Assembly: GCA_020853095.1 (NCBI GenBank)
Contig: JADYZN010000006.1
Location: forward strand, 1-57,743
Source: Phycisphaerales bacterium
Lineage (GTDB): Bacteria; Planctomycetota; Phycisphaerae; Tepidisphaerales; Tepidisphaeraceae
Direction of reading: 5' to 3'
DNA length: 57,743 nucleotides
Of this stretch, positions 44,617-49,515 are shown one piece after another. Position 1 is the stretch's first letter; every line of letters begins with the position of its first letter. Position numbers and translations under genes: made by a program. Under the pieces are notes generated by a model. It was given only the letters and a program-made list of their open reading frames with translations. It was not told where the DNA came from and did no database searches.

Positions 44617-44689
44617 TACCCCCAAGGGGAGTCGAACCCCTGTCCTCTGGCTGAGAACCAGATATCCTGGGCCACTAGACGATGGGGGC
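44617..44689 (-). tRNA. tRNA-Glu (anticodon CTC)
   Basis: The 73-nt minus-strand sequence folds into a full cloverleaf: acceptor GCCCCCA/TGGGGGT (first pair G-U) with discriminator A, D arm beginning TCGTCTAGTGGCC, anticodon stem TCTGG/CCAGA with loop TTCTCAG (CTC, reads GAG), and T arm AGGGGTTCGACTCCCCT. CCA is not encoded. The D-arm sequence is typical of tRNA-Glu. Confidence 0.95.
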
Positions 44690-48655: not shown

Positions 48656-48708
48656 GGTTTCTCCATGCCGGGACATTGAACCGGGCCGCGAGGAAATCGG
48701 AACGGAAA

Positions 48709-48799
48709 CGGAGAGGCCGGGATTCGAACCCGGGGTAGCAGTTTTAGCCGCTACAACGGTTTAGCAAACCGTCGCCTTCAGCCGCTCGGCCACCTCTCC
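48709..48799 (-). tRNA. tRNA-Ser (anticodon GCT)
   Basis: The 91-nt minus-strand sequence has acceptor GGAGAGG/CCTCTCC with discriminator G, D arm TGGCCGAGCGGCT, anticodon stem ACGGT/ACCGT with loop TTGCTAA (GCT, reads AGC/AGU), a long variable arm (TTGTAGCGGCTAAAACTGCTA) as in class II tRNAs, and T arm CCGGGTTCGAATCCCGG. CCA is not encoded. Confidence 0.95.
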
Positions 48800-48858
48800 A
48801 GACTGTCGCTCAAAAAAGTACGCCCATCGGCCGTTAAATGCAAGCATCGGATGCGCCA

Positions 48859-49515
48859 TCACCGCCTGGCCACGCGCAGGGGGTCGGGTTTGCCCGATTG
48901 TTGAAAGGCCGCCTCACGGCCGCGACACCCCCGGCACGCCCAGCAGGGTTCGGGGGTGTCGGCCGTGCAACTCCACGTTTTTTCAAAGGGCGCGCCCACC
49001 TGATACCCCACGTCCACCACCTGCCACGGTTCCAGTTCCAACAGCGGCAGCATCAGCTCCAATTCACCCTGATCGCACGGCAGTTGAATCAGCTCGTTCC
49101 AGACCTGGCCGAATTCCGTCGCCCGCGCCAGTTCATCGGTTCCCGCCCCCACGCGCAGGCCCATGTAAATCGCCGCGGCCTGGTAATGGGCGGCGAACCG
49201 GCTGGCCAGCGACACCAGCGGCAGCAATTCCATCAGCGCCGGCCCCATTTCCGGCCGGTATCGCGGATCGGGAACGGTCGGCGCCTGGGGCGTCGACGTC
49301 TGCACGGCCGACAAAAACGGCATCGCCAGCGTGTGTTCGCGATAGGGCTTGAAATGGGCCACCTGCAGGTCGTACGCCGCCCGCCCGCGCGAACCGGCCG
49401 GGTCCATCACCTGGCCGTTCAACATCACCAGCCGGTATTTCTGGGCCGCCAGCGCGGAGATCACCGCCGAGTTGAGGCTGCCGTTGTTCAGCACGATCGC
49501 CAGGTCCTTGGCCAT
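48859..49515 (-). CDS. QueC-like protein with a degenerate ATP pyrophosphatase loop
   Basis: The 218-residue protein keeps the C-terminal zinc-site pattern of QueC (7-cyano-7-deazaguanine synthase): GAPFEKTWSCTAD, PCWACRGCRGREAAF, four cysteines in order. The N terminus reads LAIVLNNGSLNSAVISAL where QueC has SGGxDS, so the ATP-binding PP-loop is changed to NGSLNS. It may be an inactive or repurposed paralog in 7-deazaguanine metabolism of tRNA or DNA. The start ATG at 49515 has a weak AGGA 10 nt upstream. Divergent from nuoC. Confidence 0.7.
   Translation of the reverse strand: MAKDLAIVLNNGSLNSAVISALAAQKYRLVMLNGQVMDPAGSRGRAAYDLQVAHFKPYREHTLAMPFLSAVQTSTPQAPTVPDPRYRPEMGPALMELLPLVSLASRFAAHYQAAAIYMGLRVGAGTDELARATEFGQVWNELIQLPCDQGELELMLPLLELEPWQVVDVGYQVGAPFEKTWSCTADTPEPCWACRGCRGREAAFQQSGKPDPLRVARR

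Follow-up and report, generated by a model that had tools for sequence, protein, structure and literature searches.

A QueC homolog without the synthase motifs

Why is a QueC-like protein kept when it no longer carries the pyrophosphate loop of QueC? The gene that raises this question lies on the minus strand at positions 48859–49515 of a 57,743-nucleotide window, which is the whole stretch of DNA that we analyzed and makes up the entire contig C6 of a 3.6 Mb genome in 77 contigs. It starts with an ATG at 49515, ends with a stop codon at 48861–48859 (included in the coordinates), and encodes 218 amino acids. The protein matches PF06508 over residues 6–207 (51.3 bits, E 1.4e-13, above the cut-off of 22), and by its sequence it is a real QueC homolog. 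Against TIGR00364, the NCBI QueC equivalog model, it scored 33.2 bits, well under the cut-off of 150.3.

The original prediction held that this protein had lost the SGGxDS loop and kept the zinc site, and both parts stand. In the sequence and alignments, residues 10–16 (49468–49488, minus strand) read NNGSLNS where QueC has xSGGxDS. The four cysteines of the zinc site, C183-x7-C191-xx-C194-xx-C197 (48925–48969, minus strand), are all present, with a first spacing of x7 as compared to x8 in canonical QueC. Alignment also revealed that VPxRN, YPDC, YxQxHxxE, and the Tyr after the first Cys are missing, with the stretches PALMELL and ELARATEF aligned at the VPxRN and YPDC positions. Because the loop, VPxRN, and YPDC are all lost, preQ0 synthesis by this protein is very unlikely, in agreement with the earlier proposal that the synthase reaction may be gone.

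An AlphaFold2 model of the protein (mean pLDDT 90.5, pTM 0.88) found its closest solved fold in QueC 3bl5 (Z 21.7 over 188 residues, rmsd 3.5), followed by QueC 2pg3 (Z 20.7), Cap9 (Z 19.0), and QatC (Z 15.0); the top ranks in Foldseek were Cap9, 2pg3, and 3bl5. The predicted fold is thus that of an intact QueC: as modeled, the active site is lost and the fold is not. The protein resembles canonical QueC (PF06508, TIGR00364; PDB 3BL5, 2PG3) in this fold, in the four zinc cysteines, and in its similar length, and differs from it in all of the motifs named above. Preservation of the zinc site probably reflects no more than preservation of the fold.

Two QueC relatives, Cap9 and QatC, indicate that QueC proteins are able to change their reaction (PMC13279940; main text of PMC13329287). 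The loop of QatC grips the beta and gamma phosphates through its Ser, Asp, and Ser, and a mutant with both Ser residues changed is dead; the deazaguanine is held in Cap9 by a Tyr and an Asp that B. subtilis QueC also has (PMC13279940). Alanine mutants of E. coli QueC at Y35, R99, Y131, and Y189 are inactive, and Cap9, QatC, and the other clusters detailed in the QueC family survey retain SGGxDS (main text of PMC13329287). Clusters 7, 8, and 10 are not analyzed in that main text, in which the string 'Planctomycet' does not occur, and our searches of open-access main texts turned up no account of a QueC clade lacking the loop.

Cap9 of type IV CBASS (PDB 9NTO), which is the best PDB sequence match of the window protein (E 8.1e-6), shares its QueC fold and zinc site but has SGGxDS and YxDC (main text of PMC13329287) where the window protein has NNGSLNS. 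QatC of the qatABCD system (PDB 9Y01, 9Y02) shares the fold and the loss of the Tyr and Asp that recognize CDG, but is about 400 amino acids long and carries SGGxDS. Among the functional positions of QatC, Cap9, and QueC, the window protein retains only the last loop Ser; because the other key residues are lost, we infer by analogy that it would neither carry out ATP-driven activation nor bind CDG.

Past the gene's start, the opposite strand carries a NuoC-like gene (Complex1_30kDa) and one for an FAD-dependent oxidoreductase; past the gene's end, on the same strand, lie tRNA-Ser(GCT) (48708–48800, minus strand) and, beyond it, a glutamine synthetase gene. The window also contains tRNA-Glu(CTC) at 44617–44689 on the minus strand. 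The four neighbors tested (glutamine synthetase, Complex1_30kDa, the FAD oxidoreductase, and a PDZ protein) included no CD-NTase as in Cap9-containing type IV CBASS, and no qatA, qatB, or qatD. PADLOC gave no QatC match at E 0.01. We rejected a role in defense, as the sole PADLOC match at that threshold was the generic QueC model and the four neighbors are not defense genes.

Conservation within the family of the window genome

The family of the window genome (f1) comprises 26 genomes, itself included, and an ortholog was found in 20 of them, one being shortened. Within the genus, the copy in the second genome shares 91% identity with the window protein; matching public contigs are titled Phycisphaerales, Phycisphaerae, and Humisphaera sp. 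None of the 19 full-length f1 members, the window protein among them, has SGGxDS, and all 19 have the four cysteines. Their loops carry Asn at the first loop Ser in 16 cases and Ser at the second Gly in 17, and the Asp is lost in 18. The shortened copy (L053:7343-7864, minus strand, genome G017) has the loop SGGANS and ends before the zinc domain; the frame directly behind it resembles, by eye, a gamma-carbonic anhydrase. We excluded L053 from all paralog counts, and L083, which is cut by a contig end, from the zinc counts and the trees.

A gene decaying under relaxed selection could leave such a pattern, with 6 of the 26 f1 genomes lacking a copy, one copy shortened, and long branches in several lineages. 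However, among the genomes lacking a copy are incomplete ones (two are 58 and 60% complete), there are no internal stops in the 20 f1 orthologs, and 38 columns are invariant across the 19 full-length members. Comparing the genus's two genomes, we estimated dN 0.044 and dS 0.62 for the paralog (Nei-Gojobori, one pair), and dN 0.048 and dS 0.49 for canonical QueC in the same pair. In this single genus-level pair, the paralog is under strong purifying selection, with dN/dS of about 0.07. Decay is thus barely credible, and we discarded the notion of a pseudogene given the invariant columns and this selection. The possibility raised earlier, that the change is private to this genome and accompanied by decay, does not apply to a gene with orthologs across most of its family.

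Altered loops across the class

A profile search of 248 genomes of the class, together with 40 further loci, extended the paralogs to the whole class; full-length copies, those of f1 included, number 54. We read motifs in 102 homologs and divided the paralogs into sub-clade P1 (f1, f5, f15, and f18; 26 rows) and sub-clade P2 (28 rows). Every listed motif position is intact in 41 of 41 canonical QueCs. An intact SGGxDS is missing in 52 of the 54 paralogs, the exceptions being two P2 members (L086 and L098, 2/28, versus 0/26 in P1), and a whole YPDC or VPxRN is found in none; the Asn of VPxRN is missing in every one. The four cysteines are present throughout (26/26 in P1, 28/28 in P2). Both the Tyr and the Asp of YPDC are absent from P1 (0/26 each), whereas P2 has the Tyr in 11 and the Asp in 17 of its 28 rows. 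Arg occupies the VPxRN Arg column in 4/26 P1 rows, although the alignment is unsure there, and in 0/28 P2 rows. Outside f1, the loops vary: SGGLNS in f3, SGGLHS and SGGLRS in f5, GGGVLG and GGGIKG in f14, SGGMRS in f18, and DGGPAS in f15. Our structure alignment (A4) held 53 rows, including four canonical QueCs and excluding L053, L083, L095, and nine f14 rows.

The first Gly of the loop is retained in all 54 paralogs and the last Ser in 48, so by sequence the paralogs might still bind a nucleotide. P1 also has invariant residues of its own, Q51, E134, and Q165 (26/26 rows), and E134 aligns three residues past the Cys of YPDC, which would place it near the old pocket. These features would fit a changed catalysis, in which a nucleotide is bound through the kept Gly and Ser and a different reaction is run with Asn and Ser in place of the lost residues, and Cap9 and QatC offer a precedent for altered QueC reactions (PMC13279940 and PMC13329287). 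In the clusters detailed in the main text of PMC13329287, though, SGGxDS is kept, Cap9 and QatC included, and the paralogs have lost the loop Asp together with VPxRN and YPDC. A new reaction is therefore an unlikely explanation.

In a tree of 101 rows, the 54 full-length paralogs formed one side of a branch with SH-aLRT 99. With the loop columns removed, SH-aLRT reached 100 for both the paralogs and the 19 f1 rows, 99 for P1, and 96 for the paralogs joined with the QueCs from families f2 and f11. A third tree, which had 96 rows and a larger set of outside QueCs, again put the 23 paralogs included on one side of a branch (95). All three trees are quick searches without bootstrap and contain long branches. 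On this sequence evidence, the 54 paralogs are one class-wide clade, and the altered loop marks a conserved group within it, as had been suggested. The minimum number of changes on the loop-free tree is 4 for the loop Asp and 3 for an intact loop.

A search of 391 genomes across the phylum at E 1e-34 matched 59, and our reading is based on 30 loci, including 4 that belong to this class. The 26 loci read from other classes contained no altered-loop copies; all have intact SGGxDS, VPxRN, and YPDC. Outside the phylum, we read 65 (L173-L237) of 80 listed loci by motif; apart from L184, a planctomycete paralog, they resemble ordinary or partial QueC. Working QueCs in the class are mostly of the THSCYDP type in most families and of the TWSCY type in f2 and f11 (e.g. 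L001, L078-L083), and other classes of the phylum have QueCs of the TWSC or SWSC type.

A locus shared with intact QueC

In relatives within f1, the QueC-like gene follows murI, a gene for a HEAT-repeat protein, and an MDR dehydrogenase gene, all on one strand and usually with short gaps. The order in f2 and f24 is murI, HEAT, MDR, a PgeF-type protein, and QueC. The PgeF-type protein belongs to PF02578, which we take to be the family of FAMIN and YfiH, in all four genes tested (two from f3, two from f24). Leaving the window aside, 29 of 60 loci have the MDR gene inside the fetched flank, some flanks being cut by contig ends: 11/19 in f1, 2/2 in f2, 4/4 in f11, 3/3 in f24, 7/11 in f3, 1/3 in f5, and 1/2 in f18, where it lies some 2.6 kb off, on the opposite strand. 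Flanks of the f7, f12, f14, f15, and f17 loci, some of which end at contig ends, contained none. In the window's own genus, the MDR locus is on another contig, beside alanine racemase and without a QueC-like gene, indicating that linkage is not needed. One f18 genome has a gene for a MobA-like NTP transferase (PF12804) directly upstream of the QueC-like gene (L116:5007-5693, minus strand).

The QueCs of f2 and f11 occupy this same locus and share TWSC and the C(x)7CxxCxxC zinc signature with the window protein, but differ from it in having all synthase motifs intact (6/6; one ends at a contig end before the zinc site). The best QueC matches in these genomes range from E 1e-47 to 1e-68, and the one f11 copy tested against TIGR00364 passes with 176.9 bits. 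Because the paralog clade shares its locus with these intact enzymes, it probably descends from a working QueC. The third tree places f2 and f11 with outside TWSC-type QueCs (support 83), apart from the paralogs, so it is mainly synteny that links f2 and f11 to the paralogs. We set aside a cell-wall function, which murI, the PF02578 protein, and, in some relatives, alanine racemase might suggest, because intact QueC sits at the same place in f2 and f11.

Paralogs and the preQ0 pathway

The window genome has a canonical QueC elsewhere, as the original prediction had asked, at G000:C24:29872-30522 (253 bits; SGGLDS, VPARN, and YPDC present). It also has QueE on contig C55 (E 3.2e-120), three PTPS homologs, and TGT, so the genome does not lack other preQ0 pathway genes; such a lack would have counted against the prediction. 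Its two remaining PF06508 matches resemble, by eye, asparagine synthetase and NAD synthetase. PTPS proved unusable as a pathway marker, with two or three family members in most genomes. In G046, G060, G076, and G224 (f15 and f18), the TGT match (PF01702) is split in two inside a single open frame, as if there were an insert in mid-enzyme.

Canonical QueC is present in 16 of 16 genomes that have a full-length P1 copy and are at least 90% complete (best E 1.3e-64 or better). This co-occurrence is what one would expect if the paralog regulated preQ0 synthesis by joining the working enzyme in a mixed complex. However, canonical QueC occurs without a P1 copy in some genomes (G008, G021), and P2 members are kept in 16 genomes that have no canonical QueC. 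We consider such a partnership improbable.

These P2-bearing genomes come from two families. The 12 f3 genomes have the paralog in 11 cases and TGT in all 12, with no QueC match better than E 1.3e-43 and no QueE at E 1e-12. Five f14 genomes (G045, G149, G178, G226, G144) have the paralog and TGT but no canonical QueC (best E 5.9e-27 to 7.8e-25, or 2.7e-28) and no QueE at E 1e-12. We searched for QueE with a nine-row alignment, since a single-protein query missed clear positives; the negatives, which also include G052, G036, and G080, hold at E 1e-12 and are not absolute. Sixteen genomes thus carry a paralog but no route to CDG that we could detect (INDEPENDENCE from the pathway), and they may salvage queuine or preQ1.

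The earlier suggestion that the protein might bind a deazapurine without making it fared poorly. A protein that descends from QueC, keeps the QueC fold, and resides in a genome with canonical QueC and QueE could in principle still hold CDG, preQ0, or another deazapurine. However, all P1 rows have lost the Tyr and Asp through which Cap9 and QueC hold deazaguanine (PMC13279940), and the 16 genomes that retain paralogs but lack canonical QueC and detectable QueE speak against a deazapurine role. We regard this form of binding as very improbable.

Discussion

Taken together, we favor, with moderate confidence, a conserved QueC-derived pseudo-synthase with a binding or scaffold role and a putative ligand or partner. 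Several observations count against a pseudo-synthase: two of the 28 P2 members have SGGxDS, the first Gly and last Ser of the loop are mostly retained and might still serve a nucleotide, L053 has no zinc domain, 6 of the 26 f1 genomes have no copy, and the third tree puts f2 and f11 with outside QueCs.

As for how a pseudo-synthase could have arisen, a second QueC may have taken over preQ0 synthesis, freeing the old copy, which would no longer activate a carboxylate with ATP. Its remodeled pocket, where the P1 invariants Q51, E134, and Q165 would lie, would most likely bind a ligand or partner protein, and the zinc site would most likely serve to hold together the C-terminal portion of the fold. 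The full scenario, in which the displaced QueC left 7-deazaguanine metabolism to become a non-catalytic binder of a ligand or partner, with a conserved pocket that is new and the zinc-held scaffold as the sole remnant of the enzyme, is a tentative one to which we give somewhat less than an even chance.

QueC proteins have recently become known as repurposed, in Cap9 and QatC, and a conserved clade without SGGxDS would show that the scaffold can be of value even when its chemistry is gone. Since the clade and an intact QueC occupy one locus, the order of events can be traced. For these bacteria, QueC calls made by Pfam score alone overstate the number of preQ0 synthases.
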